From Mesorhizobium sp. M7A.F.Ca.US.008.03.1.1 (GTDB lineage Bacteria > Pseudomonadota > Alphaproteobacteria > Rhizobiales > Rhizobiaceae), in contig NZ_RZRU01000001.1 in the NCBI RefSeq assembly GCF_003997495.1, positions 248,001 through 312,000 on the forward strand: a stretch of DNA of 64,000 bases. Direction: 5' to 3'. Of this stretch, positions 8,140 through 31,998 are shown piece by piece. The notes beneath the pieces are model-generated. The model was not told where the DNA came from. It made no database searches and saw nothing but the letters and a program-made list of their open reading frames with translations. Every line of letters starts with the position of its first letter. Position 1 is the stretch's first letter. The position numbers and the translations under genes were made by a program.

Positions 8140-8164
8140 CAGGGCTCCGGAATCCAGGTTAACG
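8140..8164. repeat. Left terminal inverted repeat of the IS
   Basis: Starts CAGGGCTCCGG and ends GGTTAACG. It aligns to the complement of 9387-9411 with a handful of mismatches and one single-base gap. Confidence 0.88.
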
Positions 8165-11064: not shown

Positions 11065-11166
11065 TTGGATCTCCATGCGATCTGACTGAATTAGTTTTGG
11101 CAAATGTCACTTGAAACCGGCGCAAAGAATGGCTGGTCAAGTTCTGAATATGATCTTGTTGTTCGA

Positions 11167-11739: not shown

Positions 11740-11760
11740 GAGCGTCTCGCTTTGAGAAAT

Positions 11761-12120
11761 TTAAGGAGCTTCGATTGGCTTGTGGCCGGCTAAAGGCATT
11801 GCCAACAGTATGGACGCGTCGGTGCCGGAGATGTTGCGCAGTCTCCTAGCCTCGCCAGGTGCAAAGCGGCATGAATCCCATGGCGAAAGGACCACTTCCT
11901 CTGCGCCGTTGGAAACCAGCACTTGTCCGGCCAGAACGACATAAAACTTTTCGGCAGGCGACGTATCCAACGTAGTGCCGCCGCCGGGCTGTATCGTCGA
12001 CACACCCAGCCACAACTGATCTGCGGGGCCCGCTTCGCGACCCTGCAGCCTGACCATCGTCATATGGTCGTGGCCGGCTGTTTGGTAAGCGGGGGCCGCC
12101 TCGAACCGCGTTATGTGCAC
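11761..12120 (-). CDS. Small cupin-domain protein
   Basis: A 119-residue single-domain cupin: STIQPGGGTTLDTSPAEKFYVVLAGQVLV forms the first cupin motif region, with Glu/Lys rather than the usual HxH pair, followed by LSPWDSCRFAPGEARRLRN as the second. The canonical metal-binding histidines are largely missing from motif 1, so a non-catalytic or substrate-binding role is possible. Its start overlaps the end of the upstream MDR reductase gene by 10 bases, indicating translational coupling. Function unknown; it may assist ring-cleavage product handling. Confidence 0.75.
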   Translation of the reverse strand: MHITRFEAAPAYQTAGHDHMTMVRLQGREAGPADQLWLGVSTIQPGGGTTLDTSPAEKFYVVLAGQVLVSNGAEEVVLSPWDSCRFAPGEARRLRNISGTDASILLAMPLAGHKPIEAP

Positions 12121-13148: not shown

Positions 13149-13199
13149 ATTCATCTCCATGGCATCAAAGGATGAGACGGCAGCGAAGGATTTGGCGGT

Positions 13200-14096
13200 T
13201 CAGGCAGCCAAGGGCGACAGGCCAATCAGCGCGCGTGCCTCGGTGGGCGAGGCGATCTGACCGCCCAAGTCTTCGACGATCCGCCGCGCCTTCGCGACCA
13301 TCGCTGCGTTGGACTGAGCCAGGACGCCGCGTTCCAGATAGACAGAATCCTCGAGGCCGACGCGGATATTGCCGCCGGTCAGGTAGGAAAGTGCGACCGC
13401 CTGAAAGGCGCTCCTGCCAATGCCGATCGCGGTAAAGCAGGCGGTTTCAGGCACGAGGTTGCGTGCGTAGACAACAGTTTCTGCGCTCGGTTGGAAGCCG
13501 TACTGCACACCAAGGATAAAACAAGTCAGCAAGGGCCCGCGCAGCGTTCCGTCCTTGACCAAATCATGCAGCAGGGCAATGTCGCCGGAATCGAACAGTT
13601 CCAGTTCAGGCTTTACGCCGGCCGCGTTGATCACTGCTGCCATGCGCCGGACATTGGCTGGCGTGTTTATGACGACCTGGCCAGCGGAGTTCATCGTGTT
13701 AAGATCGAGCGTGCAGATATCCGGCTTTAATGCTGCGATATGCTGCACCCTCTTTTCCGGGATAAGCAGTGTGGTGCCAGGACCTGCAACCCTGGGGTCT
13801 TGTTCCGAAGGTACGAATCGTCCGCCTGGACCGGTGGTCAGGTTGATGATCAGCTGAGAATTCCTGGATCGTATGCGGTCGATGACTTCCCGGTACATCG
13901 CGATATCCATGGAAGGCGCCCCGGAAATCGGATCGCGCACGTGAATATGAATAATGGCCGCGCCGGCATCCGCCGCGGCCAAACTCGAGTTGGCGATCTC
14001 CTCAGGCGTTACAGGCAGATAGGGCGTCTGCGACGGGGATGTGAGGTTGCCCGTGACGGCACATGTGATGAACACCTTCGGGAGGGGAGAGCGCAT
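13200..14096 (-). CDS. Beta-keto acid cleavage enzyme (BKACE, DUF849 family)
   Basis: A roughly 298-residue protein matching the 3-keto-5-aminohexanoate cleavage enzyme family: KVFITCAVTGN at the start, ADAGAAIIHIHVRDP with the two zinc-binding histidines, LIINLTTGPGGRF, and GIGRSAFQAVALSYLTGGNIRVGLEDSVYL near the end. Family members condense a beta-keto acid with acetyl-CoA, yielding acetoacetate and a new acyl-CoA. The ATG at 14096 follows the upstream SDR stop by 11 bases; the open frame to 14174 would overlap that gene. Its presence implies the pathway passes through a beta-keto acid, consistent with ring cleavage upstream. Confidence 0.88.
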   Translation of the reverse strand: MRSPLPKVFITCAVTGNLTSPSQTPYLPVTPEEIANSSLAAADAGAAIIHIHVRDPISGAPSMDIAMYREVIDRIRSRNSQLIINLTTGPGGRFVPSEQDPRVAGPGTTLLIPEKRVQHIAALKPDICTLDLNTMNSAGQVVINTPANVRRMAAVINAAGVKPELELFDSGDIALLHDLVKDGTLRGPLLTCFILGVQYGFQPSAETVVYARNLVPETACFTAIGIGRSAFQAVALSYLTGGNIRVGLEDSVYLERGVLAQSNAAMVAKARRIVEDLGGQIASPTEARALIGLSPLAA

Positions 14097-14107
14097 CCGA
14101 CACACCC

Positions 14108-14923
14108 CTACAATGCACGGCCGCCATCGACCTGGATCGTGTGTCCGGTCGAATAGGTCAGCATTGTTGCGCAAGCGAGGATCGCGGCGGCGATATCATC
14201 TGCCTCGGCAATTCTGCCGAGCGGTGTCGAGGCGGCAACCTTCGCGTTAAAATCCTCGCCACGTCCCGGCACGAACTGTGTGTCCACCACGCCCGGCGAA
14301 ACAGCGAGCACCCGGACCTGGGGGGCCAGCGCCCGGCCCAGCGCCTTTGTCATCACGTCGATTCCAGCTTTGGCCGCGCAATAGGCTATTGATGATCCCA
14401 CGCCCGTGAACGCGGCAATGGACGACAATGAAACCACGAGTCCATCGCCCGATGCCTTGAGCAAGGGAGCAAACGTCCGGATCGCCGCGAACTGACCTCG
14501 CCAGTTAACCGTGAACATGCGGTCGATAAGATCATCGGTCAGCGCGTCGAGATCACCGTGCGGAACTGGCACGGTATAACCGGCCGCATTGATAAGCACA
14601 TCGAGCCTTCCGTAGCGCTGCTCAATCACCTGCTTCAAGGCAAGCAGCGATTGCGTGTCGGCAATGTCCGCGGGCAATGCCTCGCAATGGGCGCCGCTCA
14701 GTTCCGCCACGATCTCCCGCGCGGCCCTTGTGTCCTTCTCGGTTTCCAGATGCGTCACGATCGCTTTGGCACCGGCCTGGACAAAAAGCCGACTTGTCGC
14801 GGCCCCAATGGCGCCCGCGCCTCCCATGACGAGGGCGATCTTGCCTGTCAGCAATTTGGGAAACGGCGCTCGAAGAACCTCGCTTTGGGTCTGTGTGGAG
14901 TGTTCGCTCGTCAATGGATGCAT
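14108..14923 (-). CDS. SDR family NAD(P)-dependent oxidoreductase
   Basis: A 271-residue short-chain dehydrogenase with about 25 extra N-terminal residues before KIALVMGGAGAIGAATSR. Active-site features are LDVLINAAGY, VVSLSSIAAF and YCAAK. It ends with YSTGHTIQVDGGRAL. It lies between the intradiol dioxygenase (23 bases upstream) and the BKACE gene. The context suggests oxidation of a diol or hydroxy intermediate, as cis-dihydrodiol or cyclitol dehydrogenases of this family do, but nothing in the sequence fixes the substrate. Confidence 0.85.
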   Translation of the reverse strand: MHPLTSEHSTQTQSEVLRAPFPKLLTGKIALVMGGAGAIGAATSRLFVQAGAKAIVTHLETEKDTRAAREIVAELSGAHCEALPADIADTQSLLALKQVIEQRYGRLDVLINAAGYTVPVPHGDLDALTDDLIDRMFTVNWRGQFAAIRTFAPLLKASGDGLVVSLSSIAAFTGVGSSIAYCAAKAGIDVMTKALGRALAPQVRVLAVSPGVVDTQFVPGRGEDFNAKVAASTPLGRIAEADDIAAAILACATMLTYSTGHTIQVDGGRAL

Positions 14924-14946: not shown

Positions 14947-15837
14947 CTATTTGATGGGCGGGACAGGGAGCTTCGCTTCGCCGGGTTCCATGACGAACGC
15001 ATAGTCGAGGCTGTACCAGTCGCCTTTGACGTCGGCGTCGGGCGCAGCGCCCGCACCTTTCCGATAATCGCCGATCAGGTGGCGCGTTACCCCGAAGACG
15101 ACGTCGCTCTCCAGATGGGTGTCGTCATCGACGAAAACTTGGGTGATGAGTGTCTTGTATCCCGCCTTGAAACCAAGGAAATGCAGGTGCGCCGGCCTGT
15201 AAGGGTGACGGTTCTGCGCTCGCAAAAGATCGCCCACCGGACCCGACGTTGGCACAGGGTATCCCGCAGGTTTGACGGAACGGAACCAGAAGCGTCCGCC
15301 GGCATCGGTCCGGAACTTGCCGCGAAGGTTCATATCGGCCTGCGTGGAATCCTGGTTCTCATAGAGGCCGACCGGTGAGGCCTGCCAGACATCGACCTCG
15401 ACTCCGGCGAGCGGATTGCCTTCGGGGTCGCTAATGGAGCAGGTTGCGAACAGCGCTGAGCCAGGCGTATCCGAACGAAGGATACTGCCGCCGTTGTGCG
15501 TTTGCGGCGAATACATTCGCCAGAACGGACCAAGCAGTGCTGCCGCGGTTTCGGTGGCCCCGCTCCGCCCGTTGTTCAAGAGACAGACGAGGGAGGACAG
15601 GCCGAGGGCGTCGGAAAAGAGAATTCCTTCGTTATGGTGATCGTTCGTTGCCTGACCAATGCGATTGAGGAAGTCGATACCGATCTCAAACTCATCTTCA
15701 GAAAGCGCGGCCTCACGCGCGAAGGCGTGAAGATGCCGGACCAAGGCCGACATCACGTGCACCAATCGCGGGCTGCTTGCTGACGTCATGGCATCGAGCA
15801 CAGCAGCCGTGACGCTCTCCTCGCTCTCAATGATCAT
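14947..15837 (-). CDS. Intradiol ring-cleavage dioxygenase (catechol / hydroxyquinol 1,2-dioxygenase type)
   Basis: A 296-residue protein with the N-terminal helical dimerisation domain of catechol-type enzymes (ISEIG-like stretch FLNRIGQATNDHHNEGILFSD) and the catalytic jelly-roll. The Fe(III) ligands are recognisable: Tyr in GLYENQD, Tyr in NRHPYRPAH and two His in RPAHLHF. These enzymes open ortho-diphenols to muconates (catechol) or maleylacetate (hydroxyquinol). Length fits both. AGGAG precedes the ATG at 15837. It is the first gene of the minus-strand operon, under a promoter carrying a 19-bp palindrome. No maleylacetate reductase or muconate cycloisomerase is nearby, so the true substrate may be non-standard. 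Confidence 0.87.
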   Translation of the reverse strand: MIIESEESVTAAVLDAMTSASSPRLVHVMSALVRHLHAFAREAALSEDEFEIGIDFLNRIGQATNDHHNEGILFSDALGLSSLVCLLNNGRSGATETAAALLGPFWRMYSPQTHNGGSILRSDTPGSALFATCSISDPEGNPLAGVEVDVWQASPVGLYENQDSTQADMNLRGKFRTDAGGRFWFRSVKPAGYPVPTSGPVGDLLRAQNRHPYRPAHLHFLGFKAGYKTLITQVFVDDDTHLESDVVFGVTRHLIGDYRKGAGAAPDADVKGDWYSLDYAFVMEPGEAKLPVPPIK

Positions 15838-15864: not shown

Positions 15865-15883
15865 GCACCAGTATAAGGGGTGC
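15865..15883. promoter_or_regulatory. Predicted operator O1 (GCACC-N9-GGTGC) over dioxygenase promoter
   Basis: The 19-base palindrome GCACCAGTATAAGGGGTGC lies 28 bases upstream of the dioxygenase start. On the minus strand it contains TATACT, a plausible -10 box with a TTGCAA-like -35 about 16 bases before it. It shares layout and most bases with the sites at 15964, 23964 and 24013. Confidence 0.68.
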
Positions 15884-15963
15884 AGTCATTTTGCAAGAGG
15901 GTTTTGCGCGCGTCCTCAAAGGAGAGATTTGTGCTGAAGGCGTTTTTGAGGCAAACAAGAGTG

Positions 15964-15982
15964 GCACCACTAATACCGGTTG
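15964..15982. promoter_or_regulatory. Predicted operator O2 over the plus-strand (RidA/ABC) promoter
   Basis: GCACCACTAATACCGGTTG matches the O3 palindrome at 13 or more of 19 positions. It overlaps the first bases of a TTGACA -35 box at 15980-15985; the -10 would lie near 16003-16009 (weak, TTACCT-like). This position is what a repressor site would occupy. Confidence 0.62.
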
Positions 15983-16070
15983 ACAACCTATACGCAAATG
16001 CGCTTACCTATCGCCAGGTTCGATGGCTTGCTCGCTATGCATTGCGGGCGAATTTTTCTGGAGGTGCAGT

Positions 16071-16553
16071 GTGGCAAGGCAGCCGGGTTTCAGATCCTCA
16101 CCGTCCAATGCGGACGTGGTTGAGGTTCAGACCATTCCTGAACGGCATGTCGACATGCCTTACGCTCCGGCGATACGCGTTGAGAGCCCTGGTGACCTTC
16201 TTTTCATCTCGGGCGCAACGCCGTCGCCACTCTATCACAAGCACCCTCATGAGTTGCATGAGCACAACCATCCCGTCGACATCCGCGATCAGACGCGCCT
16301 CGCCATGGAGACCATCGGATCTATCTTGCGCCACGAAGGGCTTCAGTGGAGCGATGTGGTCAAAGTAACGAAGTACCTGACGGATATCCGTGATCAGGAC
16401 GGGATGGTGGCGGTCCTGAAGGAGTATTTCGGGGACTGGAAGCCCGCCAGCACGACAATCTGCATCAACCAGCTCTCGACCCAGGGCGCACGGATTGAGC
16501 TCGACATGATCGCCGTCTTTCCGAGATCCTCAACTTTGGTGGGCAACACATGA
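16071..16553 (+). CDS. RidA-family protein (YjgF/YER057c/UK114)
   Basis: About 160 residues with the RidA fold: LLFISGATPSPLYH near residue 50, MVAVLKEYFGDWKPASTTI, and the C-terminal STQGARIELDMIAVF containing the conserved Arg-x-Glu motif. RidA proteins hydrolyse reactive enamine/imine intermediates; catabolic paralogues often act on ring-cleavage or amino intermediates. The GTG at 16071 is chosen because GGAGG sits seven bases upstream at 16060-16064; an in-frame ATG at 16023 gives an implausible Cys-rich extension. First gene of the plus-strand catabolic operon; its end overlaps the next gene by four bases. Confidence 0.82.
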   Translation: MARQPGFRSSPSNADVVEVQTIPERHVDMPYAPAIRVESPGDLLFISGATPSPLYHKHPHELHEHNHPVDIRDQTRLAMETIGSILRHEGLQWSDVVKVTKYLTDIRDQDGMVAVLKEYFGDWKPASTTICINQLSTQGARIELDMIAVFPRSSTLVGNT

Positions 16554-16870
16554 CAGTTGTCGGGGGGCTCGCCGCGCTGCTGGCTATCGTCTTCCTGTGG
16601 GCCGGCGCGCTTAATTTGATCGGGCCTGCGTTTGTGCGCGCGGAATTCGATAAGTGGGGCTATCCGGCCTTCATGCGGATAGCGGTCGGATTGGTCGAAA
16701 TCTCGGCGGCGGCGATGTTGTTTTGGCCGCACGGCCAACGATCTGGGGCGGCGATAGGGGGGGTCGTCTTGGTCGGTGTCATCGCTTCGCTGCTACGTAC
16801 GCGCGAGTGGCTGAGGCTCGAGTATCCGGCTGTTTTGCTCGTCGCGTGCGTTTTGCTTGTCGCATTGTGA
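16550..16870 (+). CDS. DoxX-like small integral membrane protein
   Basis: A 106-residue hydrophobic protein with about four membrane segments (residues 3-22, 44-60, 65-82 and 90-105). The layout GAxNLIGPAFVRAEFDKWGYP followed by VGLVEISAAAMLFWP is typical of DoxX-like proteins. The start overlaps the RidA stop in an ATGA, so the two are translationally coupled. Function is not known for this group beyond membrane localisation and occasional links to redox chemistry. Confidence 0.72.
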   Translation: MTVVGGLAALLAIVFLWAGALNLIGPAFVRAEFDKWGYPAFMRIAVGLVEISAAAMLFWPHGQRSGAAIGGVVLVGVIASLLRTREWLRLEYPAVLLVACVLLVAL

Positions 16871-16973
16871 TGTCGAAGGGCCCGGATGAAAAATAATAGC
16901 GGGCAGGCCGGCCAGGGGAGGCCGATTGGCAGAACAATGCAAGTCGGTGCTGCGTCAAGGGAGGAGTTCACTC

Positions 16974-18569
16974 ATGTTGGAAGAATCCGGCACTGAAGGG
17001 CCTGTTGGAATAGACCGCGGCGTCGCTGACCCTGACGTCGGGGTTTTGTCGGCCGCGCGCGCCGATACGCCAAGGCCGATGATGGTGCTCAACGGGGTTA
17101 GCAAGTCATTCGGCCAGATGCAGGCGCTCTCGCAGGTGGATCTCGAGATCCATGCTGGCGAAGTCCATGTCCTGCTTGGTGAGAATGGCGCCGGCAAGTC
17201 GACGCTGATCAAGACGCTCGCGGGAATCTACGCGCCCGATGCCGGCGAAATTCTGCTCGATGGTAATCGGTTGGTGCTTGGCGGACCATCTGATGCCCGC
17301 CGCGCCGGCATCAGCGTCATCCATCAGGAATTGGCGCTTGTTCCCCACCTTACGGTCGAAGAGAATATAGTTTTGGGGCGTGAGCCGAGGTTTTCAATCC
17401 CCGGATCGATCGACCGTCGGGTTCAGCGCGAAACCGCGCAACGTGCCCTCGAACTGGTTGGCTTCGACGGCGATCCACGCGGTAAAGTCGCAAACCTCAC
17501 CACGGCCAGGCAGCAGTTGGTTGAAATTGCCAAGGCCCTCGCGCATCGATCGCGCATATTGGTCATGGATGAGCCAACAGCCTCAATATCGGAGCGGGAC
17601 GCTACGAACCTCCATGCGATCATCGGCGATCTGAAGCGTCGCGGCGTGGCGATCGTGTTCATCTCGCATCGAATGCGCGAGGTTTTCGAACTAGCAGATC
17701 GGGTGACGGTTCTGCGGGACGGTCGGAAAATCCTGACCGCGCTTCCGCATGCAACGACGCCCGAACTGCTGATCAAGGCGATGGTCGGACGGACTGTAGG
17801 ATCCTTCTATCAGCGGCTGGAGCGGTTCGTGGCTGGCGAAGTCATTCTTGAAACGCGGGCACTTTGTTCAGCGGCCGGACTGGTTGACATGAATATTGTC
17901 GTGCGCAGCGGCGAGGTTGTCGGTCTTGCCGGTCTTGTTGGATCGGGGCGAACCGAGTTCGCACGGGCGGTTTTCGGGCTGGACAGGCGCACCGGCGGTG
18001 AAGTGCTTCTTCACCAGCTACCGCTCCCTGCGGACCCGGTTCGTGCTGTGCGGTCCGGAATAGCCTTTGTGCCGGAAAGCCGGAAGGAGCATGGACTGGC
18101 GCTGACCAAATCAGTCTGTGACAATCTCACGCTTCCCGCCCTTTGGAAGATCTTTCCGCATGGCTTGCGCTCGCGCCGCAGGGCCGACCAGGTGGCACGT
18201 GGTCTCATCGAGCGCCTGCGCATAGCGACACGTTCGACGCGGCAGCCGGTGCGGACCCTCAGCGGCGGGAACCAGCAGAAAGTGGTCATCGGGAAGTGGC
18301 TGCCGATCGAGGGAAACCGCCGGCTCATCATTATTGACGAACCGACGCGCGGCATCGACGTAGGCGCCAAGGCTGAGATTTTGAAACTCGTCGAAGGTCT
18401 TGCCGCAGAAGGGTGCGGTATTCTGATGATCAGTTCCGAACTGCCAGAAGTCGTCGGCTTTTGCGATCGTGTCTATGTGCTGCAAAGTGGCACGGTGCGT
18501 GGCGAACTGTCCGGTGCTCATTTGACCGAAGAAGCCATCATGAAGCTCGCGGTGCATCATGATAGCTGA
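16974..18569 (+). CDS. Sugar-type ABC importer ATP-binding protein (RbsA/MglA-like, two ATPase domains)
   Basis: A 531-residue tandem ATPase. Domain 1 has Walker A GENGAGKST and Walker B LVMDEPTAS, with the weak signature LTTARQQLVEIAKAL usual for this family. Domain 2 has the degenerate Walker A GLVGSGRTE, signature LSGGNQQK and Walker B LIIIDEPTRGID. This matches CUT2 (ribose/galactose/inositol) importers. The ATG at 16974 follows GGGAGGAG. About 35 residues precede the first strand of domain 1. It overlaps the first permease gene by 11 bases and powers the importer encoded by the next three genes. Confidence 0.93.
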   Translation: MLEESGTEGPVGIDRGVADPDVGVLSAARADTPRPMMVLNGVSKSFGQMQALSQVDLEIHAGEVHVLLGENGAGKSTLIKTLAGIYAPDAGEILLDGNRLVLGGPSDARRAGISVIHQELALVPHLTVEENIVLGREPRFSIPGSIDRRVQRETAQRALELVGFDGDPRGKVANLTTARQQLVEIAKALAHRSRILVMDEPTASISERDATNLHAIIGDLKRRGVAIVFISHRMREVFELADRVTVLRDGRKILTALPHATTPELLIKAMVGRTVGSFYQRLERFVAGEVILETRALCSAAGLVDMNIVVRSGEVVGLAGLVGSGRTEFARAVFGLDRRTGGEVLLHQLPLPADPVRAVRSGIAFVPESRKEHGLALTKSVCDNLTLPALWKIFPHGLRSRRRADQVARGLIERLRIATRSTRQPVRTLSGGNQQKVVIGKWLPIEGNRRLIIIDEPTRGIDVGAKAEILKLVEGLAAEGCGILMISSELPEVVGFCDRVYVLQSGTVRGELSGAHLTEEAIMKLAVHHDS

Positions 18570-19545
18570 AGTTGCGCGCACAACGAGGCTGCGGGGCAAT
18601 CGCGCCCGCAACCTTTTGCCGTCCAAGACGCTGGGCGCGAGCGTGGTCCTGATTATCCTGGTCCCGCTTTTCGGCGTGTTTGCGGGCGGCTTCTTGTCGC
18701 CACACAACCTCGTCAATATCGCGCTGCAGAGCTCAATCCTGCTCCTGATCGCGTTACCCATGACGTTGGTTATCCTGACCGAGGGTCTGGACCTTTCCTC
18801 CGGTGCGTTGCTGAGCCTATGCGGCGTTGTGCTGGCGCTGTTGCTGGTGGCCGGCTATTCGATTCCCCTCGCTACCTTGGCGGCGATGGCAGTGGGATTG
18901 CTCTTCGGCATTCTTAACGGCTTTTGCGTCGCAAACCTCGGTATGCCGCCTTTTGTCGTGACACTGGGTACGTTGGGGATGGCACAAGGTTTGGCGTTGG
19001 CTCTTGCCGACGGCAACGCCGTGTCGGGACTTGGACCCGAGATCGAAGCATTTTCCGCGTTCCGTTTTTTCGGCCTGCCGGTGCTGGTCCTGATAGCCAT
19101 CGCTGCGTACGGCATCTTCCACGTGGTGCTCTACCGCACGACCTTTGGGCGCTATGTGATTGCGGTCGGGGGCAATGCCGAGGCCTTGCGTCTATCAGGT
19201 GTCAGTGTGCGGCTTGTTCACGGCGCCGTCTATGCGATTTCCGGAGCAACAGCCGGTTTCGCGGCTCTGTGCATGATCGCGCGCACCAATGCAGGTCATC
19301 CCACGATTGCGCTGGGCATGGAGTTCGATGCGATCGCCGCAGTCGTGCTCGGAGGTACATCATTTGAACGCGGCAATGGTTGGTTGTTTGGCACCGTCCT
19401 TGGTGTTCTGGCCATTGGCGTCTTGCGCAATGGTCTCAACCTGATCGGTGTCGATACGTCTCTGCAACTGGTCGCGATCGGCGCCTTGGTGATTGCCGTC
19501 CTGCTGGTTGAGAGACTGGCCAGCGACAGGAGTGCTTCAGCATGA
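18559..19545 (+). CDS. CUT2-type ABC importer permease (RbsC-like) 1
   Basis: A 328-residue protein with 8-10 hydrophobic segments and the RbsC-family pattern: ITLVILTEGLDLSSGALLSL in the second segment and the conserved VVLGGTSFERGNGWLFGTVLGVL near the C-terminus. It forms, with the second permease, the membrane channel of the importer. It starts 11 bases before the ATPase stop and its stop overlaps the next ATG. Two different permeases in one CUT2 system imply a heterodimeric channel rather than the RbsC homodimer. Confidence 0.91.
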   Translation: MIAEVARTTRLRGNRARNLLPSKTLGASVVLIILVPLFGVFAGGFLSPHNLVNIALQSSILLLIALPMTLVILTEGLDLSSGALLSLCGVVLALLLVAGYSIPLATLAAMAVGLLFGILNGFCVANLGMPPFVVTLGTLGMAQGLALALADGNAVSGLGPEIEAFSAFRFFGLPVLVLIAIAAYGIFHVVLYRTTFGRYVIAVGGNAEALRLSGVSVRLVHGAVYAISGATAGFAALCMIARTNAGHPTIALGMEFDAIAAVVLGGTSFERGNGWLFGTVLGVLAIGVLRNGLNLIGVDTSLQLVAIGALVIAVLLVERLASDRSASA

Positions 19546-20534
19546 CTGAGACCACGCAGACCTCGGCCTTTCGCACTTTTCGGGGCGACACAGGCGCACC
19601 GCTCGATCCGGAGCTGCGCTCCATCATTGCGCGTTTTGTTGTTTTGGCGGTGCTGTGTGCGGGCGTAGCGCTGTTGAACGAAAACTTCCTGTCCGTCGCC
19701 AATTTCACCAACGTTCTTCGGCAGGCAAGCCTGCTGTTCCTGATCGCGGCCGGCGCGACACTCGTCATTATCGCCGGTGCCATCGACCTTTCCGTTGGTG
19801 CCATCCTGACTTTGTCGGCTTGCGTTGCGGCCGGGGTCATCCACGCAACTGGATCCTCTGGTCTTGGCATAGCAACAGCTCTTGCCATCGGCGTCTCGGC
19901 AGGTTTGGCAAATGGCATTCTGGTGGCGGGGCTGAGATTGCCCCCATTCCTCGTCACCTACGGCATGCTGTGGATTCTGTCTGGTGGGGCGCTCTATTAC
20001 ATGGGCGGCATTCCCATCACCGGCTTTCCCCGTGAGTTCCGCTTCCTGGGCAGCGGATTTCTGCTCGGCATTCCCGTGCCGATCCTGATTATGATCGCTA
20101 TCGCGCTCGCCGGCAGTGTCGTGCTGCACATGACAATGGTTGGTCAGCAGATTGTCATGATGGGAGCCAACCGCGCGGCCGCTACACTTGCCGGCATACC
20201 TGTGCGGCGCAACCTGATCTGCGTTTACGTGGCCAGCGGCGCATGCGCTGGACTGGCAGCCGTAGTCGCCCTTGGCCGTGTGAACTCGGCAGACCCAGGC
20301 ATGGGCGACCCGCTGTTGCTGCCATCGATCGCGGCAATCCTGGTGGGCGGCACGTCGCTCTTCGGCGGCACTGGAACGCTTTTGGGCACGGCGCTTGGCG
20401 CGCTTCTACTTACGATCGTCCTCAATGCGATGAACCTGCTTACGATCGGCTCTGCTTGGCAGCCTTTCGCAACAGGTATCGTCCTTGTTGGAGCCATGCT
20501 TGCCGACGCCTTTCTAAATCGACGTCGCAGTTAG
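19542..20534 (+). CDS. CUT2-type ABC importer permease (RbsC-like) 2
   Basis: A 330-residue RbsC-like permease: LLFLIAAGATLVIIAGAIDLSVGAILTLSA early on, LPPFLVTYGMLWILSGGALYYMGG in the middle, and ILVGGTSLFGGTGTLLGTALGALLL near the end. Starts within an ATGA overlap with permease 1 and is followed after 54 bases by the binding-protein gene. About nine membrane segments are apparent. Confidence 0.91.
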   Translation: MTETTQTSAFRTFRGDTGAPLDPELRSIIARFVVLAVLCAGVALLNENFLSVANFTNVLRQASLLFLIAAGATLVIIAGAIDLSVGAILTLSACVAAGVIHATGSSGLGIATALAIGVSAGLANGILVAGLRLPPFLVTYGMLWILSGGALYYMGGIPITGFPREFRFLGSGFLLGIPVPILIMIAIALAGSVVLHMTMVGQQIVMMGANRAAATLAGIPVRRNLICVYVASGACAGLAAVVALGRVNSADPGMGDPLLLPSIAAILVGGTSLFGGTGTLLGTALGALLLTIVLNAMNLLTIGSAWQPFATGIVLVGAMLADAFLNRRRS

Positions 20535-20588
20535 CGTCGTTGGTCAATAACCATAATAAATATCCAGAGTGGGAGATGGAGAGAGAAA

Positions 20589-21548
20589 ATGAAAACTGCA
20601 TTAGTCTCGGTAATTCTTCTAGTCATCTCAGCCTCCTGCGCCATGGCCCAGGACAACGGTGAGATCGCCGTCTTCACCAAGAACAAGGTCGATCCGTTTT
20701 TCGAGGAAGCCCGCGTCGGCGCCGATGTGGCCGCCAAAGGCCTTGGCTATTCGACGGTCCAATACGCCCCAACACGACCGAACAACTTTCAGGAGCAGAT
20801 CGCTCAGGTCGAGGACGCCATCACACGCAAACCCAAGGGCATGGTGTTTGTCCCTGTTGATACGAAGGGCCTCAAGCCGTCGGTCGACAAGGTTCGGGAG
20901 GCCGGCATTCCAATCGTCAACTTCATCGATACAGGTGACGGCAATTTCAATTCCTACGTGATTTATGACGACCATAGGATGGGCGCCGATGTCACCCGCA
21001 TCCTTGCCCAGAAACTTGGTGGCAAGGGCAAGATTGTCATCATTGAAGGCATCAAGGGATCAGCAACCAGCGACAATCGCACCGCTGGCGCGCAGGAAAC
21101 CTTGAAATCCTATCCCCAGATCCAGGTGGTGGCCGTTCAGGCCGCAAACTATCAACGGCTCCAGGCTCTCCAGGTGATGGAGAATCTGATGCAGCAATTT
21201 CCGGAAATAGACGGTGTCATCGCGGCATCCGACAACATGGCTTTGGGGGCGATCGAGGCGATGGAATCGGCCGGGCATAGCGGCACCCAGGTGGTCAGCA
21301 TGGACGGAACGATCGACGGCGTCCAAGCCGTAGCGGCTGGCCGGTTGCTGGCTTCGGCGGAATTCTCCGGATTTCAGATGGGCTGCACCGCGGTTGAAAT
21401 AATCGACCGGGTGACCAGGGGCGAGGCGGTTCCGGAACGGCTGGAACTGAAGGCGGAAATGATCACCAAGGAGACAGCCGACAAATTCGGTCAACCGCTC
21501 GAAAAGCGGACCTGCAAGTCGCTCAAGGATCTTGGGGTTGCATCCTGA
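20589..21548 (+). CDS. Periplasmic substrate-binding protein of the CUT2-type importer
   Basis: A 319-residue secreted protein. The N-terminus MKTALVSVILLVISASCAMA is a signal peptide with likely cleavage after AMA. The mature part shows the type I periplasmic binding fold of the RbsB family: IAVFTKNKVDPFFEEARVGAD, IVNFIDTGDGN, VIIEGIKGSATSDNRTAG and DGVIAASDNMALGAIEAME. A GGAGAGAGAAA tract precedes the ATG. Ligands of such proteins are sugars, cyclitols and similar polyols; here it presumably captures the island's substrate. Confidence 0.92.
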   Translation: MKTALVSVILLVISASCAMAQDNGEIAVFTKNKVDPFFEEARVGADVAAKGLGYSTVQYAPTRPNNFQEQIAQVEDAITRKPKGMVFVPVDTKGLKPSVDKVREAGIPIVNFIDTGDGNFNSYVIYDDHRMGADVTRILAQKLGGKGKIVIIEGIKGSATSDNRTAGAQETLKSYPQIQVVAVQAANYQRLQALQVMENLMQQFPEIDGVIAASDNMALGAIEAMESAGHSGTQVVSMDGTIDGVQAVAAGRLLASAEFSGFQMGCTAVEIIDRVTRGEAVPERLELKAEMITKETADKFGQPLEKRTCKSLKDLGVAS

Positions 21549-21561
21549 CGTAAGGCAAACC

Positions 21562-21596
21562 GGCTCGCCCTGGGGGCGTTGTCGCCCGGGCGAGTC
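21562..21596 (+). other. Intercistronic stem-loop after the binding-protein gene
   Basis: GGCTCGCCC and GGGCGAGTC form the arms of a GC-rich hairpin, with GGGGCG/CGCCC extending the pairing. There is no U-tract, so it is unlikely to end transcription fully. Such stem-loops after binding-protein genes commonly stabilise the upstream message. Confidence 0.5.
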
Positions 21597-21619
21597 TCGA
21601 CGAGAAATGGGGTGGTTCC

Positions 21620-22330
21620 ATGCGGTTCGAGGGTCGCGTCGCCATTGTGACCGGCGCCGCACGTGGGTTTGGTGCGGCAATCGCTCACTTGTTGGCCTCG
21701 GAAGGCGCACAAGTCTACGCGGCGGATCTGAATGCGCCTCAGCAGACAGGTCTGCGGGCGCTGCAGCTCGACGTCTCTGATGAAAAAGCCTGGGTTGCCG
21801 CGGTTGCTACCGTTTTCTCCGAAGCCGGCAAGATCGACATCCTTGTCAACAATGCCGGTATCAACATCTATCCGGCGGCACACGAAATCGAACTCGCCGA
21901 ATGGAACCGGGCGATTGCCGTCAACCAGACGGGTGTGATGCTGGGGTTGCGTCATGTTCTCCCGCTTATGCTGCTTCGAGGCAATGGGGCGATTGTCAAC
22001 GTCTCGTCCACGCTTGGCGTGGTCGCGGTTGCCGGGGCGATCGCCTACCATGCCACCAAGGGAGCGGTGTCCCAGATGACCCGAAACGCCGCCATCACGT
22101 ATGCGGCCCGCGGCATCCGCGTGAATGAGGTGCTTCCTGGAATTTCGGACACCGATCTCGTGCGCTCGCAGGCGGACGAATTTACACAAGCCAGCCTGAC
22201 GCGAACGCCGATGGGAAGGCTAGGCCGCGCTACCGAAATTGCTGCCGCGGTAGCCTTTCTTGCGTCCGATGACGCAAGCTTCATCACCGGTGCAAGTCTT
22301 GCCGTCGATGGTGGCTATCTCGCTCAATAG
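21620..22330 (+). CDS. SDR family NAD(P)-dependent oxidoreductase
   Basis: A compact 236-residue short-chain dehydrogenase: VTGAARGFGAAIAHLLA at the N-terminus, DILVNNAGINIYPAA, active-site Ser in NVSSTLGVVA and YHATKGAV, ending FITGASLAVDGGYLAQ. It is closely related in pattern to the SDR at 22752-23468 (shared YHA-K and DGGY-AQ end), suggesting a duplication with divided roles. Its ATG lies 71 bases after the binding-protein gene, past a stem-loop. Confidence 0.86.
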   Translation: MRFEGRVAIVTGAARGFGAAIAHLLASEGAQVYAADLNAPQQTGLRALQLDVSDEKAWVAAVATVFSEAGKIDILVNNAGINIYPAAHEIELAEWNRAIAVNQTGVMLGLRHVLPLMLLRGNGAIVNVSSTLGVVAVAGAIAYHATKGAVSQMTRNAAITYAARGIRVNEVLPGISDTDLVRSQADEFTQASLTRTPMGRLGRATEIAAAVAFLASDDASFITGASLAVDGGYLAQ

Positions 22331-22383
22331 ACCAGATTGTCCCATCCATACAGGTTTAACAGCAATCCAGCGGAGGACGATTC

Positions 22384-22755
22384 ATGCCCAGCAAAGGCGA
22401 CAATATCTTTGTCTGCATCAGTCAATATCGAAAGCCGACTGCAGAGGTTGATATCCACCTTCCTGCCCATATTGAGTGGCTGAAAGAACAGGACAGAAAC
22501 GGGCGCACGATCGCCACTGGGCGGCAAGTGCCCGGTACCGGCGGCGTCAACATCATGGCGGCGCACGATCGACAGGCAATGCTGGACATTCTGGCCACCG
22601 ACCCCTTCACTGTTCACGGCTGCTCTTCCTACTGGATATTTGAGTTCGAGCTCAATCTCGACCCGCACAAGGGCCGCCTGATGGATCATTTCTTCAGCGA
22701 GGACTTTTCCATTTCCGCAGAAGCCGTTCAGAAATCGGGAGCGCGCTCGAAATGA
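22384..22755 (+). CDS. YciI-like small dimeric alpha+beta barrel protein
   Basis: A 123-residue protein with IFVCISQYRKP, a His in LPAHIEWLKEQ, GRTIATGRQVPGTGGVNIM, and AMLDILATDPFTVHG. This order of motifs is that of the YCII domain, whose members include 5-chloromuconolactone dehalogenase-like enzymes, so a lactone or muconate intermediate is a plausible substrate. GGAGG precedes the ATG. The stop overlaps the next SDR start by four bases. A C-terminal extension of about 25 residues goes beyond the core domain. Confidence 0.74.
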   Translation: MPSKGDNIFVCISQYRKPTAEVDIHLPAHIEWLKEQDRNGRTIATGRQVPGTGGVNIMAAHDRQAMLDILATDPFTVHGCSSYWIFEFELNLDPHKGRLMDHFFSEDFSISAEAVQKSGARSK

Positions 22756-23468
22756 GGCTGGCGCGGAAGGTCGCCATCGTTACGGGTGCCGCGCGCGGCA
22801 TTGGGCTCGCCATCGCGCGCCGGTTTGCCGAAGAGGGCGCCTGCGTGATCGCGGCAGACCTCCATGTCGAGGATTGGCCGGCCGGGCAGCTTACGCCATT
22901 CCTGCATGACGTCACCGATGAGAAATCCTGGGCAAGCTTGGTTGACGAGAGGACCACAATGTTTGGCGGGTTGGATATTCTCGTCAACAATGCCGGTATC
23001 ATCAGCCACAATACCATCGAGGCCGAGACGATGGAGTCGTGGCAGCGGGAAATCGATGTCAACCAGACTGCCGTCTGGCTCGGGATGCGCGCGGTGGTAC
23101 CCGCGATGCGACGCGGCGGAAGCGGCTCTATTGTCAACGTATCGTCCACTTGGGGCCTGGTCGCGGTACCGAGCGCAATTGCCTACCATGCGTCGAAGGC
23201 TGCGGTTGTGAATATGTCGCGCTGTGGCGCGGTGACCTTCGCCAAGGACAGGATAAGGGTCAATGCGCTTCACCCAGGCCTGACACTCACGGAGATGATA
23301 CGAGCACAGTCTGAAGAGATCACGGGCCGCGTTGTTGCCATGACGCCGCTTGGCCGTGGCTGCGAGCCGCGAGAAGTCGCCAACGGGGCGTTGTTCCTCG
23401 CCAGCGACGAGGCGAGTTTTGTCACCGGCACATCGTTGATCGTCGACGGCGGTTACACGGCACAGTAG
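22752..23468 (+). CDS. SDR family NAD(P)-dependent oxidoreductase
   Basis: A 238-residue short-chain dehydrogenase: VTGAARGIGLAIARRFAEEG, DILVNNAGIISHN, NVSSTWGLVAVPSAIAYHASK with the catalytic Ser and Tyr-Lys, and FVTGTSLIVDGGYTAQ at the end. Resembles the SDR two genes upstream. Last gene of the plus-strand operon; a terminator-like hairpin follows, but its T-run faces the converging minus-strand gene. Confidence 0.87.
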   Translation: MRLARKVAIVTGAARGIGLAIARRFAEEGACVIAADLHVEDWPAGQLTPFLHDVTDEKSWASLVDERTTMFGGLDILVNNAGIISHNTIEAETMESWQREIDVNQTAVWLGMRAVVPAMRRGGSGSIVNVSSTWGLVAVPSAIAYHASKAAVVNMSRCGAVTFAKDRIRVNALHPGLTLTEMIRAQSEEITGRVVAMTPLGRGCEPREVANGALFLASDEASFVTGTSLIVDGGYTAQ

Positions 23469-23504
23469 CGCGGTTGCCCAACCAACGTCATCAACCAAGA
23501 AAAA

Positions 23505-23527
23505 GCCCGGTAACCAGGTTACCGGGC
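23505..23527 (-). terminator. Rho-independent terminator for the minus-strand ABM gene
   Basis: gcccggtaac and gttaccgggc form a perfect 10-bp stem with a three-base loop. On the minus strand it is followed by TTTTTCTT. It lies 47 bases beyond the stop of the gene at 23574-23915, and may also slow plus-strand transcription of the convergent operon. Confidence 0.83.
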
Positions 23528-23573
23528 AGGTGTCAGCGGTAGGGGGAGAAATCCACCGATGAAGCCTGGGACG

Positions 23574-23915
23574 TCAGCTATCCGGGGCGTCGCCGCGCGG
23601 CGCGAAGAAAGCGAAGTCCTCCCTTATCGGTTGCCAATACTGCATTACTCTTGGCGCCCTCAGGATTTCGGGTAGGCGCGCTTCATAGGTTTTCCGGTAC
23701 TCCCTGGTCATCTGCACCTCCAGGAAGTCCGCCTTGTCGGCCCAGGTTTCATAAAGCATGAAACGGGTGGGATCCTCGGGATCTCGATTGAGGACTGTGT
23801 TGATGAAGGTTTTCTCATGCCGCATGGCGTCGAGAACGGGTGTGACGAGCTCGACATATTCTGCCTCATGCCCCGGTTTCACGTGGTTTGAAACCACCAC
23901 CACGAACTCGCACAT
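23574..23915 (-). CDS. Antibiotic-biosynthesis-monooxygenase (ABM/YgiN) domain protein
   Basis: A 113-residue single ABM domain: CEFVVVVSNHVKPGHEAEYVEL, TFINTVLNRDPEDPTRFMLYETWADKADFLEVQM, and a C-terminal RAPRVMQYWQPI. Members include quinol monooxygenases and cofactor-free oxygenases as well as proteins of unknown function. A role in hydroxylating or oxidising an aromatic or quinol intermediate would fit the neighbouring ring-cleavage dioxygenase. Start ATG at 23915 has GAGG upstream; the frame opens at a GTG two codons earlier. Divergent from the CGNR regulator gene. Confidence 0.8.
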   Translation of the reverse strand: MCEFVVVVSNHVKPGHEAEYVELVTPVLDAMRHEKTFINTVLNRDPEDPTRFMLYETWADKADFLEVQMTREYRKTYEARLPEILRAPRVMQYWQPIREDFAFFAPRGDAPDS

Positions 23916-23963
23916 CGTCACCTCGCATCATTAAAGGATTATCTGCCCTTGAACCTGTCGATA

Positions 23964-23982
23964 GCACCGCTTTAACCGGTGC
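23964..23982. promoter_or_regulatory. Predicted operator O3 in the ABM-CGNR divergent region
   Basis: GCACCGCTTTAACCGGTGC is a near-perfect palindrome. On the minus strand it fills the 17-base spacer between TTGCGC and TATCGA, a plausible promoter for the ABM gene, so bound protein would block it. Confidence 0.68.
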
Positions 23983-23997
23983 GCAAGCGATTCTCTC

Positions 23998-24026
23998 TTG
24001 GCAAATCAACGAACACCACTTAAACT
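23998..24026 (+). promoter_or_regulatory. Predicted promoter of the CGNR regulator gene
   Basis: TTGGCA at 23998-24003 and TAAACT at 24021-24026 are separated by 17 bases. The expected transcription start falls at or next to the ATG at 24033, and no ribosome binding site is present, so the message may be leaderless. Confidence 0.55.
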
Positions 24027-24031
24027 GGTGC
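24013..24031. promoter_or_regulatory. Predicted operator O4 next to the CGNR start codon
   Basis: ACACCACTTAAACTGGTGC repeats the CACC-N9-GGTGC layout of O3, covers the predicted -10 box and ends one base before the start codon. It suggests autoregulation. Confidence 0.65.
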
Positions 24032-24032
24032 T

Positions 24033-24611
24033 ATGATGGAAAATGACGCCACACATCGTAGCAAGGAAGACTTTCGTTTTCGCGACACCCGCCTTTGTTT
24101 CACCCTTCCGGCAACGCTCGGTGACAGGGGGTCTAAGCAACCCTTTGAGCGCATGCGGTCTCCGGAGGATCTGGGTAGATGGTGCGTGGAAAGCGGATTG
24201 CTTGACAGGGCTCCGGCGGTAGATGAGCAGAAGCTTGCCAAAGCTATTTCCCTGAGGGAATCGCTTCAGCGAATTGGTGAGTCTATAGCCACGAGGCGAT
24301 CTCCCGATCAGTCTGACATCGCTCAAGTCAATGTTGCAGCGTCGGTCGAGGTAACACCTCAACTGTCGGAAGACGCGGCTTCAGTGCGATGGGTCGCGGG
24401 CGGCGTCGAGGCTGCCTTGTCGCGCGTCGCGCGCGATGCGGTAGATCTGTTCTCAGGGAGCTTTCGCGACCGCATCAGAATTTGTGCCAATCCAAAATGC
24501 CAAGGACTTTTCGTCGACGAGTCGCGACCTGGACTTCGCCGTTGGTGTTCGATGACAACATGCGGCGACCAAGCCAAGAAGGCGCGGTTTCGCAAGAAGG
24601 CGCATTCGTGA
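24033..24611 (+). CDS. CGNR zinc-finger transcriptional regulator (ABATE domain), likely island regulator
   Basis: A 192-residue protein. Residues 15-140 have the layout of the ABATE stress-type domain (RFRDTRLCFTLPATL, LGRWCVESGLL, LAKAISLRESLQRIGES). The C-terminus is a CGNR zinc finger: CANPKCQGLFVDESRPG, then RRWCSMTTCGDQAKKARFRKK, with four cysteines. The name-giving Asn is replaced by Asp (CGDQ). CGNR proteins are regarded as DNA-binding regulators of neighbouring catabolic genes. Its own start is overlapped by a palindrome repeated in the island's other divergent promoter, making this protein the best candidate to bind all four sites. Confidence 0.84.
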   Translation: MMENDATHRSKEDFRFRDTRLCFTLPATLGDRGSKQPFERMRSPEDLGRWCVESGLLDRAPAVDEQKLAKAISLRESLQRIGESIATRRSPDQSDIAQVNVAASVEVTPQLSEDAASVRWVAGGVEAALSRVARDAVDLFSGSFRDRIRICANPKCQGLFVDESRPGLRRWCSMTTCGDQAKKARFRKKAHS

Positions 24612-25386: not shown

Positions 25387-26227
25387 AGACGTGGCGGAAC
25401 CGCCGTAGGTTCGGTGACAGATTTTTTCTGTCAAAGTCATTTTATCACCGTTTCTAACACGCGCAGAACTGGCATTCTTTATCGTTGGTCTACAAATCCG
25501 ATCTGCGCCCACGCCTTTCATAAAGCAGACCTTAAAAAGGAAGAGGCTACAGTGTAGGGCGGCGTGCACAAAGGCGGGTCTGCTCCGCGCCGCGTCATCT
25601 TAGAGCGATCTCCGTGAGTAAGGGCATGAAGCTTCCCGGCTGTCCGGCGCGTGAAGTGATCTCAGTTGAATCCCCTACCATTCAAGCGAACTGGCCTGCT
25701 GTCGGGTTGGCGTGCTGCACGAGAAGTACTCAGCGATCAAGGTGCGGCGTTAATATGGAGCTGCGCTGGGGCTCTCGTCACGCTGAGCCGCACGTCTGCC
25801 GCCTGGCTCTTATCGGGCGTGCGCCGGTTCGATCTCACAACTCGGTTCTGGTGACTGTGGCTCCCCCTTATGTTCGACTATTAACTGTTCGGCCAAGTTG
25901 GGCGTTGACGCTTCCTCTCTATAAGAGTTAATAATCTCCTAATATAAGAGGCATCTAAAGTTTGTGGTCGGTAACCACGGGTTTGACGATGTAATATGGG
26001 GTAGGGAAGGTAGCGCGACCACCAGTCGTCGCGTCCAGCAGCATCGGGTCAATATCCGTCTGTGAATGGCCAGCTTGAGGCGGCTGTTCCAAGCGCGGTG
26101 GTGTGCCTGGCGACAATTCGTGCCTCCCGGATTCGCGATTTTCTTCGGCTGGAATCAGCCGGTCGTTCAGTACTACCGATAATGATAATACAGATGAGGC
26201 ATCTGTTCTTAAAAAGGGGGGTTGAAA

Positions 26228-29200
26228 ATGGCTACTCAGGTCATCGGTGCCGGCGGCACCACGACGTCTTTCTCCAACACACCGCAGGCGAAAGATGATC
26301 TCCTGACGACCGCCGCTTCAGGCGCTCTTCTCACGGAGGATCTGTCAGGCGTGATCAAGCTCGACGTGCTCGCCAACGACAGTGGCGGTGCCGCCAAGAC
26401 ACTTTGGTCGGTCGACGATGCATCCGGTCCGGTAGGGACCAGCACAAACGGAAACACCTACCCCTCCGATCTCCTCGTGAAGGACGTCGCTTACGCAAAC
26501 GATACGACCGGACTCGCTGGCAGCTTGGACTTCAGCGCCAAGGGCGCGAAGATCTGGATCGGCAGCGACGGGTACGTCCACTACGATACAAGCTTGGTCG
26601 CTTCTCAATTGCAGGCGCTCGGGGCGGGCGACTCTTTCACCGACACGTTCACATACGCGATCAAGCTCGGAAACGGGACGCTGAGCTGGGCGACCGCGAC
26701 TGTTCGCATCGCCGGCACAAACGATGCGCCCGATATCCATCTGGTGACGACCGACAGCGCGGGTGCCTCGCTGATCGAGACCAACTCGGCTCTGACCAAG
26801 AGCGGCACGCTGACTGTGAACGACGCTGATGTCTCCGACACGGTAACCGCAAGTGTTACCTCAGTGTCACTCGGCGGCACCGCAGGCGGACTGAACAGCG
26901 CCGCCGTCCTCGGCATGCTCTCGGTTTCGCCAGCCTCGCTGACGGCCAATCCGGGCGAAGCCCACAATCTAGGCTGGACCTTCAACTCGGCACCACAGGC
27001 CTTCGACTTCCTGGCCGCAGGCGAGACGCTGACCCTCACCTACACGATCAAGGCAGACGACGGCCACACCGGCACCGACACGCAGACCGTGACCATCACC
27101 ATCACCGGCACCAATGATGCAGCGATCCTGTCGGCCGACGTCGCCAACCTGACCGAAGGCAACACCGCAGCGGCAATCAGCACCAATGGCACGCTGACCA
27201 TCTCCGACGTCGACAGCCCAGCGACCTTCGTCGCCCAGGCCGCAACCGTCGGAACCTATGGCACCTTCGCCATCAATGCGGCTGGTGCCTGGACCTACAC
27301 GGCAAGCTCCGCCCACAACGAGTTCGTCGACGGCCAGCACTACACCGAGAACTTCGACGTGGTCAGCGCCGATGGCACCCACACCTCGGTCCACATCGAC
27401 ATCCTGGGTACCAACGATGCCGCCGTGCTCTCCTCCGCCTCGGTCGACCTGACGGAAGCCGACACCGCAGCGGCAATCAGCACCAATGGCACGCTGACCA
27501 TCTCCGACGTCGACAGCCCAGCGACCTTCGTCGCCCAGGCCGCAACCGTCGGAACCTATGGCACCTTCGCCATCAATGCGGCTGGTGCCTGGACCTACAC
27601 GGCAAGCTCCGCCCACAACGAGTTCGTCGACGGCCAGCACTACACCGAGAACTTCGACGTGGTCAGCGCCGATGGCACCCACACCTCGGTCCACATCGAC
27701 ATCCTGGGTACCAACGATGCCGCCATCCTGTCGGCCGATGTGCGCAACCTGACCGAGACCAACTCGGCCACCGACATCTCGACCTCCGGCACGCTGACCA
27801 TCTCCGACATCGACAGCCCGCAAACCTTCGTGGCCCAGCTGGCCAATGTTGGAACCTATGGCACCTTCGCCATCAATGCGGCTGGTGCCTGGACCTACAC
27901 GGCAAGCTCCGCCCACAACGAGTTCGTTGGCGGCACCACCTACACCGACACCTTCGATGTCGTCAGCGCCGACGGCACCCACACCTCGGTGACCGTCAAC
28001 ATCCTCGGCACCAACGACAACGGCGCACCAGTCGCTGTCGCTGATACCAATTGGGCGAAGGAAGACACCAACACAAATGCAACTGGCAACGTGCTTCAGA
28101 CACTCGTGCATGTCGGTGCGCCGTCGGGAACGTTCTCGGACCATGCGGACACCGATCCTGACGCCGATACACTAGCTGTCTCCGCGCTCTCCGGCGGCAT
28201 CGACAACGGCGCCACATTCACCAGGACCGGAACTTACGGCTCGCTTGTAATCACCAAGGCGACCGGGGCCTACACCTATACTCTGGCGAACGCGCAAGCC
28301 AATGTTCAGGCTCTGGCGGCGGGCCAGACGGTCACGGATAGCTTCACCTACACCGTCTCGGACGGGCATGGCGGAACATCATCGGCCAACCTGGCTGTGA
28401 CGGTCTTCGGCACGGACGAAGTTACTCCTGGGCTGATTACCTTGGTAGCCGATGGCAAACAGGGGAGTAACTCCGACCCAAGTACCGTCACCATAACGTT
28501 TACTACGGCCGTCCATACGAATTTTGTCAATCTATCCGATGTGATGCATCTATCCGGCTTGGCAAACGCAACGGTAATAAATGGCTCCGGCTTTTTCGTT
28601 GATGCGACTCACTATCGGTTCCTCGTCGACAAGGGTACTGGAAGCAACAACGGATCATCCTACACTCTTAACATCGATAGCGGGGCATTCTCAGATACAA
28701 CCGGCCATACGAACGGTCCCGTCAGCCAGGGCAACCTCAAGCCCGCCGGCACCTCCGGCGAGCCGATCAATCTCGCCCTGACCGATCCATCGCATGAAGG
28801 CGCCCTCATCACAGTCACGGTGAAGGACGTGCCTTCGGGCTGGACCATCGATGGCGCCACCCACAACGCCGACGGAAGCTGGACGACACAGACCAGCGAC
28901 CTGCACGGGCTGACCGTCACCACCCCGGTGAGCTTCACCGGCGCCGCCGTGCTCGACGTGCAAATGACCTGGACCAATGCCGACGGCACGACGGGCAGCG
29001 CGTCGATCGCCGACAATGTCGAAGCCTATGCTCCGGGCTCGCCGATCTTCGCCTGGTCGGGCGACGACGTGCTGACCGGGTCCAGCGGCAACGACCTCTT
29101 CGTCTTCTCGCAGCCGATCGGCGCCGACACGGTGCACAATTTCGACGCCACGGCCGACCAGATCGACCTTATCGGCTACAATGGATTGGCAGGCTTTGCC

Positions 29201-30217: not shown

Positions 30218-30278
30218 ACCAAAAGGGCGGCCGTCAGCGGCGGCGGCTCACCTGGCCTGACGAGTATCGAGTGGGGTT

Positions 30279-31979: not shown

Positions 31980-31998
31980 GCCGTGGCCGGAGAGATCG

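Follow-up and report, generated by a model that had tools for sequence, protein, structure and literature searches.

Operator candidates beside a CGNR regulator gene

The subject of this report is a gene island of Mesorhizobium sp. M7A.F.Ca.US.008.03.1.1, lying within a stretch of 64,000 nucleotides (contig NZ_RZRU01000001.1, positions 248,001 to 312,000; hereafter the window), in which the gene for a CGNR zinc-finger protein adjoins putative catabolic operons. Four copies of a 19-base-pair palindrome, O1 to O4, are candidate operators of this protein. A sequence-only reading of the window had placed two of them in each of the island's two divergent intergenic regions and the CGNR gene beside O4; all of this was verified in the window sequence, with 1 base between O4 and the ATG at 24033. 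The sites, the regulator gene, and its putative promoter are as follows.

15865–15883: O1, operator candidate GCACCAGTATAAGGGGTGC, exact GCACC-N9-GGTGC
15964–15982: O2, degenerate operator candidate GCACCACTAATACCGGTTG, two mismatches, right arm GGTTG
23964–23982: O3, operator candidate GCACCGCTTTAACCGGTGC, exact GCACC-N9-GGTGC
23998–24026, plus strand: putative leaderless CGNR promoter, TTGGCA-N17-TAAACT; similar geometry recurs in relatives
24013–24031: O4, operator candidate ACACCACTTAAACTGGTGC, one mismatch to GCACC-N9-GGTGC
24033–24611, plus strand: CGNR regulator gene, 192 amino acids, ABATE and zf-CGNR domains (Pfam)

With up to two mismatches, bare GCACC-N9-GGTGC has 65 matches in the window against 55.6 ± 8.1 expected; because this is chance level, the scan was dropped as evidence and O2 taken alone is unremarkable. 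With the AT core included, RCACCRSTWWWASYGGTKS occurs with at most one mismatch at five places in its own 6.52-Mb genome, the four sites and one other. A matrix of the four sites scores O1 at 24.3, O2 at 20.5, O3 at 25.8, and O4 at 24.5, and an independent-base model of 6.52 Mb predicts 0.48 places scoring at least 20 and 0.008 scoring at least 24, although the matrix was trained on the sites themselves, so that its scores are inflated and the chance figures only indicative. The fifth genome match (C44:346394, L001:8395) was rejected as a regulon member: it begins right after a stop codon, is missing at the orthologous places in genomes G332, G073, G217, and G310, and 0.2 places of its score are expected genome-wide by chance. 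Apart from this one non-conserved place, the palindrome does not recur at random positions in the genome.

The CGNR protein

The protein has an N-terminal ABATE domain (PF07336, E 3.8e-22, 79.7 bits against a cut-off of 24.4) and a C-terminal CGNR treble-clef zinc finger (PF11706, E 2.2e-18). The zinc cysteines C151, C156, C172, and C177 are invariant in 26 and in 16 aligned sequences. The literal CGNR motif is not present: the window protein reads CGDQ, the consensus of its relatives is CGN, and the founding structure, Jann_2411, reads CQNR (PMC2954205). An AlphaFold model built from 16 sequences (pLDDT 83.3, pTM 0.79) has a sole match in the PDB at E ≤ 0.001, which is 3h0n (Jann_2411; E 1.2e-5, TM 0.60/0.62, root-mean-square deviation 6.5), and this was the one solved relative recovered by sequence or fold search. 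The paper on that structure describes a probable dimer whose interface holds a cavity, and proposes that the zinc finger binds DNA and that ABATE senses a ligand (PMC2954205). No DNA-binding domain turned up when the 17 remaining island proteins were searched against Pfam; below threshold, the cupin matches the ligand-binding part of AraC.

Distribution of ACC-N9-GGT in the CGNR family

Loci with CGNR matches (97) were reduced to 77 non-redundant ones, 36 at 80 bits or more, including the window's own, and 41 below; Actinomycetota were sampled through one contig scan and plasmids. The region from −200 to +15 was scanned de novo for 64 three-base arms with their reverse complements at 14 spacers (3–16), against dinucleotide shuffles. 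In the 36 loci of at least 80 bits the highest z-score belongs to ACC-N9-GGT, found in 22 where 1.8 are expected, and with any of the other 13 spacers these arms are seen in 0–5 loci; in the 41 loci below 80 bits, arms other than ACC rank first. Controls for the higher-scoring loci carry the pattern in 263 of 6174 random windows and in 11 of 298 regions upstream of other open reading frames, and those for the lower-scoring loci in 362 of 7420 and 32 of 524, respectively. At least two sites lie upstream in 9 of the 36 loci, and of 14 distances measured from the proximal site, 11 fall at 38–52 nucleotides. DNA looping by paired sites was considered and rejected, as these spacings keep no single helical phase.

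The site follows the protein tree. On a tree of the 77 proteins, with the region extended to −200 to +60, it is present in 27 of 34 members of one clade and in 3 of the 43 others (Fisher 5e-11). A rule was then recorded before 35 new loci were examined, of which 32 were left after near-copies of training loci had been dropped: the site is present in 7 of 7 clade members and in 0 of 25 non-members (Fisher 3e-7), and five of the seven members share only 43–61% identity with their closest training protein. The connection of protein and site, which the sequence-only reading had named as inference, is thereby supported, with binding itself still a prediction from comparison; absence of the sites upstream of orthologous clusters, the outcome that would have spoken against that reading, is not what was found. 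On this comparative evidence, ACC-N9-GGT is the likely operator type of one CGNR clade.

Whether the arm has C or A as its outer base also follows the tree, with 5 changes against 12.2 in shuffles. Zinc-finger residues 147, 155, and 158 covary with this base, but are not claimed as its determinants because the base changes few times on the tree, so that descent and specificity are inseparable.

The nearest relatives of the window protein found outside the genus are from Pseudonocardia alaniniphila (61%) and a Streptomyces plasmid (52%), and the three proteins group on three trees (SH-aLRT 98, 82, and 99), which suggests transfer between phyla. There are two sites upstream of the CGNR gene in Pseudonocardia alaniniphila, two on the Streptomyces plasmid, and three upstream of each of three Kutzneria genes. 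Annotated neighbours of other clade members are often enzymes acting on small molecules, such as alcohol dehydrogenase, short-chain dehydrogenase/reductase (SDR), alpha/beta hydrolase, ectoine hydroxylase, or epoxide hydrolase, and some clade members neighbour ABC-F proteins. As a separate observation, at L095 on Rhodococcus opacus plasmid pCP54 a PLSDB resistance-gene call falls on a coding sequence labelled metal ABC transporter binding protein; the labels conflict.

Within Mesorhizobium, CGNR relatives at E ≤ 1e-15 occur in 12 of 146 genomes, with 98–100% identity in 3, the window's genome included; the orthologues in Mesorhizobium norvegicum and M. escarrei are 98% identical to the window protein. 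The core pattern was found in 8 genomes out of 144. Three of these are carriers of the close CGNR orthologue and have 4, 4, and 2 places; the remaining five have a single place, in each case within an open frame of at least 265 codons. The pattern written backwards, as a control, occurs in 46 of 144 genomes (hand count), so a single match in a genome is taken as noise and several as meaningful. The two other CGNR genes of the window's genome are outside the clade and have no ACC-N9-GGT upstream. An interspersed repeat of about 90 bases (L001:8528-8617) was also seen, which recurs many times in G310 and a few times in G217 and G332.

Position relative to start codons and promoters

The centre of O4 is at −11 from the CGNR start codon. 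When the centre of ACC-N9-GGT is plotted over all candidate starts in 109 rows, peaks are seen at −11 (18) and −12 (6). An exact site is centred −11 to −13 before a candidate CGNR start in 22 of 34 clade members, and in 29 of 34 with one mismatch allowed, L063 and L093 of these being judged spurious; in L066 the start giving the exact match may be the wrong one. Exceptions include L063, with palindromes farther upstream and GGAGG before an ATG, and L068, with its site centred at −15. When palindromicity was scored without the arms, −11 stood out modestly in the 36 loci, 14 of which reach at least 6 of 9 pairs there, and the other 41 loci show no distinct maximum.

The sequence-only reading had each of the four sites overlapping or lying between likely −10 and −35 boxes, which holds for O4, is plausible for O1 and O2, and is weak for O3. 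TTGGCA-N17-TAAACT is the sole promoter-like match in the O4 region, with its −10 inside O4. The core of O1 holds TATACT (minus strand, 15875–15870), a putative −10 of the dioxygenase operon, only 15–16 nucleotides from TTGCAA/CTTGCA by eye. The right arm of O2 overlaps TTGACA (15980–15985), conserved in three genomes but with no good −10, and no promoter-like pair was recovered when the O1/O2 region was scanned with a promoter consensus. By eye, O3 fills the 17-nucleotide gap from TTGCGC to TATCGA on the minus strand, weak boxes of the divergent monooxygenase-type gene.

The O4 arrangement is consistent with that in relatives. In 25 aligned rows (the spurious L063 and L093 included), the core reads [TC]A...T at the expected −10 of a leaderless transcript, with A as second base in 23 rows and T as sixth base in 16. 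TTG was counted 11 times at 24–25 nucleotides before the centre, which gives a spacer of 17–18. The centre base is A in 20 of 22 proximal and 11 of 20 distal sites (p 0.013), as in a directional core. Taken together, the −10 pattern, the TTG spacing, and the promoter match in the window point to an ACC-N9-GGT operator that likely spans the −10 box of a promoter for a leaderless transcript.

Proposed mechanism and alternatives

From the computed sites, their linkage to the protein clade, and their position relative to start codons, we infer that the four palindromes are, with high probability, operators of the adjoining CGNR protein. Bound to them as a dimer, this protein would shut off both its own gene and the putative catabolic operons of the island. 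A dimer with ABATE and treble-clef zinc-finger domains would occupy O1 to O4. At O4, on the apparent −10 of the leaderless CGNR promoter, bound protein would block RNA polymerase and produce autorepression. O1, O2, and O3 lie in or beside apparent core-promoter elements of other operons, and protein bound at these three sites would likewise exclude RNA polymerase there. Release of the repressor would come through the ABATE domain upon binding of a ligand, possibly a ring compound that the island imports or produces.

Several observations weigh against this reading or narrow it. O2 is degenerate, and O1 and O2 are 8 kb from the CGNR gene, to which they are linked by sequence likeness alone. Varying columns among three Mesorhizobium genomes number 2 of 19 in O1, 3 of 19 in O2, and 38 of 80 in the stretch between them, but 10 of 88 in the stretch after O2, so O1 and O2 are better conserved than the 80 columns that separate them but not than the 88 that follow; O3 and O4 are invariant in the three genomes, but so, nearly, is their whole region. 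Conservation within the genus is therefore weak evidence. In the family, the 41 loci below 80 bits also carry ACC-N9-GGT in 6 cases where 2.0 are expected, support for the clade is SH-aLRT 88–90 across trees (90 on the 77-protein tree), and many rows are related while the shuffles ignore kinship. Seven of the 34 clade members have no exact site between −200 and +60 (L003, L005, L059, L084, L085, L092, and L093): in L005, L084, L085, and L092 a site with one mismatch lies at −11 or −12, L059 has a different palindrome, and L003 and L093 have nothing convincing. Two of the held-out members, L117 (94%) and L115 (87%), are close to training proteins, and the position half of the rule did worse than the presence half, with an exact site at −11 to −13 in 3 of 7 held-out members and in 5 of 7 with one mismatch. 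Start codons were picked by rule, and some Streptomyces cores, CAGGAT and CAGGAG, could be ribosome-binding sites rather than −10 boxes.

The most serious alternative, though an unlikely one, is that the CGNR protein is an activator or dual regulator, with a distal site recruiting polymerase and the proximal site tuning expression. The loci with at least two upstream sites (9 of 36) are in keeping with this, as are the distances of 38–52 nucleotides from the proximal site (11 of 14), a place suited to acting on the CGNR promoter. The distal site, however, may just serve the divergent gene, and the proximal site is on the apparent −10, with O1, O2, and O3 also at apparent core-promoter positions. 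Proteins bound at core-promoter positions usually repress.

It is much less probable that the palindromes belong to another, unlinked regulator that controls CGNR genes. That the link between protein and site is a comparative one leaves some room for this, but the presence of the site follows the CGNR protein tree even across distant phyla, and so does the outer base of its arm; the site is missing from the upstream regions of the same genome's two CGNR genes outside the clade, and occurs at more than one place only in the three carriers among 144 Mesorhizobium genomes. Finally, a hairpin acting in RNA at the 5' end of the CGNR message would fit the place of O4 right next to the start codon, where an element controlling translation is expected, but hardly merits credence, as O1, O2, and O3 are away from the CGNR coding start, the leaderless promoter would place O4 upstream of the transcript, and the core retains a −10-like pattern.

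A second palindrome type

Some CGNR loci outside the clade carry a different palindrome, AACC-N8-GGTT, which was spotted post hoc among held-out non-members, so that the pattern is fitted to the same data that are counted here. Among non-members it is present in 9 of the 43 in the training set and 16 of the 25 held out (25 of 68 together), versus 0 of 34 training clade members, and in 5 of 11,542 and 0 of 6054 random windows. Among four-base arms in the 68 non-members it has the top count, 25 against 0.13 expected, where no combination of any kind exceeds 8 in 60 shuffles. On the 109-row tree no row has both types: the N9 clade comprises 41 rows, 34 with N9 and 0 with N8, and all 25 N8 rows fall in the other large group of 59. 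The N8 form is mostly TAACC/CAACC-N8-GGTTA and often occurs as pairs about 38–48 nucleotides apart between −200 and +60 of the CGNR gene; examples are L078, L072, L080, L012, L114, L126, L130, and L131. The −11 register is not clearly held by N8 sites (3 of 25 loci). Other CGNR genes seem to use AACC-N8-GGTT. A third inverted repeat, GGTTAC...GTAACC, precedes the C17 CGNR gene in the window's genome (L112:1278-1294) and is also found at L058, a relative of that gene, about 120 nucleotides upstream of the CGNR match.

A broader hypothesis, held with less assurance than the operator assignment but favoured on balance, is that the ABATE/CGNR family reads the half-site ACC and that its branches differ in spacing, with N9 in a clade of Alphaproteobacteria and Actinomycetota and N8 in a second group, mostly Proteobacteria in the sample. 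The N9 operator would be fused to a leaderless −10 in a near-fixed register, forming an autorepressor cassette that has moved between phyla.

Genes and putative function of the island

The remaining genes of the island, with operon membership assigned as probable, are as follows.

10327–14923, minus strand: six more genes of the probable dioxygenase operon, membership inferred from spacing
14947–15837, minus strand: intradiol ring-cleavage dioxygenase (PF00775/PF04444), first gene on the O1 side
16071–23468, plus strand: probable operon on the O2 side; first start taken as GTG at 16071, not ATG at 16023, by eye (GGAGG)
23574–23921, minus strand: antibiotic-biosynthesis-monooxygenase (ABM)-type protein (PF03992), on the O3 side, divergent from the CGNR gene

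The six genes after the dioxygenase encode an SDR enzyme, a BKACE protein, a zinc-type dehydrogenase/quinone reductase, the cupin, a hexapeptide protein, and a second SDR enzyme. The O2-side operon encodes RidA-type and DoxX-like proteins, a sugar-type ABC transporter (ATPase, two permeases, and binding protein), an SDR enzyme, a YciI-like protein, and another SDR enzyme. The nearest solved chains to the dioxygenase include the hydroxyquinol 1,2-dioxygenases 8r2x and 1tmx; it reached no NCBIfam cut-off, and its hydroxyquinol-type likeness comes from the solved-chain matches only. From these gene assignments, the island may take up a cyclic compound and degrade it to a 3-oxoadipate-like acid, with both the substrate and the order of steps inferred.

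Outside these operons, a DDE transposase gene (PF01609) lies just beyond the island at 8159–9241. A protein of 1331 amino acids with repeats of about 300 bases is encoded at 26222–30217 and is followed at 30279–33336 by open reading frames that by eye resemble an ABC exporter and a membrane-fusion protein; the whole of 26222–33336 looks, again by eye, like a secreted repeat protein with type I export genes.

Significance and relation to known systems

CGNR proteins are annotated as putative regulators, and the sequence-only reading had noted that few of their DNA targets have been described. A literature search by title and start of abstract, which covered few subscription papers, found no DNA target of any CGNR protein. 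No DNA site for Jann_2411 is named in the available portion of its paper (PMC2954205), and another paper has a CGNR gene in an expression table (PMC9976334). What is new here is a concrete candidate operator for CGNR regulators, its position, and its clade range. A clade-tied, held-out-tested operator of this kind lets many regulons be predicted and is a ready substrate for gel shifts and for a DNA-bound structure, and the N9/N8 difference and the C/A outer base provide tests of how a treble-clef zinc finger reads DNA.

The island resembles hydroxyquinol/catechol 1,2-dioxygenase clusters in its intradiol dioxygenase, BKACE, and SDR enzymes, but also has a CGNR regulator and a sugar-type ABC importer. 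The dimeric LacI- and TetR-type autorepressors found in catabolic clusters bind palindromic operators between divergent genes, with the regulator beside the enzymes. By analogy, the predicted dimer, the palindromes between divergent genes, and the regulator beside enzymes in the window are alike; however, no helix-turn-helix was matched in the CGNR protein, whose proposed DNA reader is a treble-clef zinc finger, and its candidate operator lies on what looks like a −10 box and keeps an almost constant distance to the start codon. The same comparison with LacI and TetR was made for Jann_2411 in 2009, in a paper that proposed a dimeric, possibly ligand-sensing DNA-binding regulator (PMC2954205). 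Jann_2411 (PDB 3h0n; PF07336 and PF11706) shares both domains and the four zinc cysteines with the window protein, but the helix motif of the latter is CGDQ, not CGNR.

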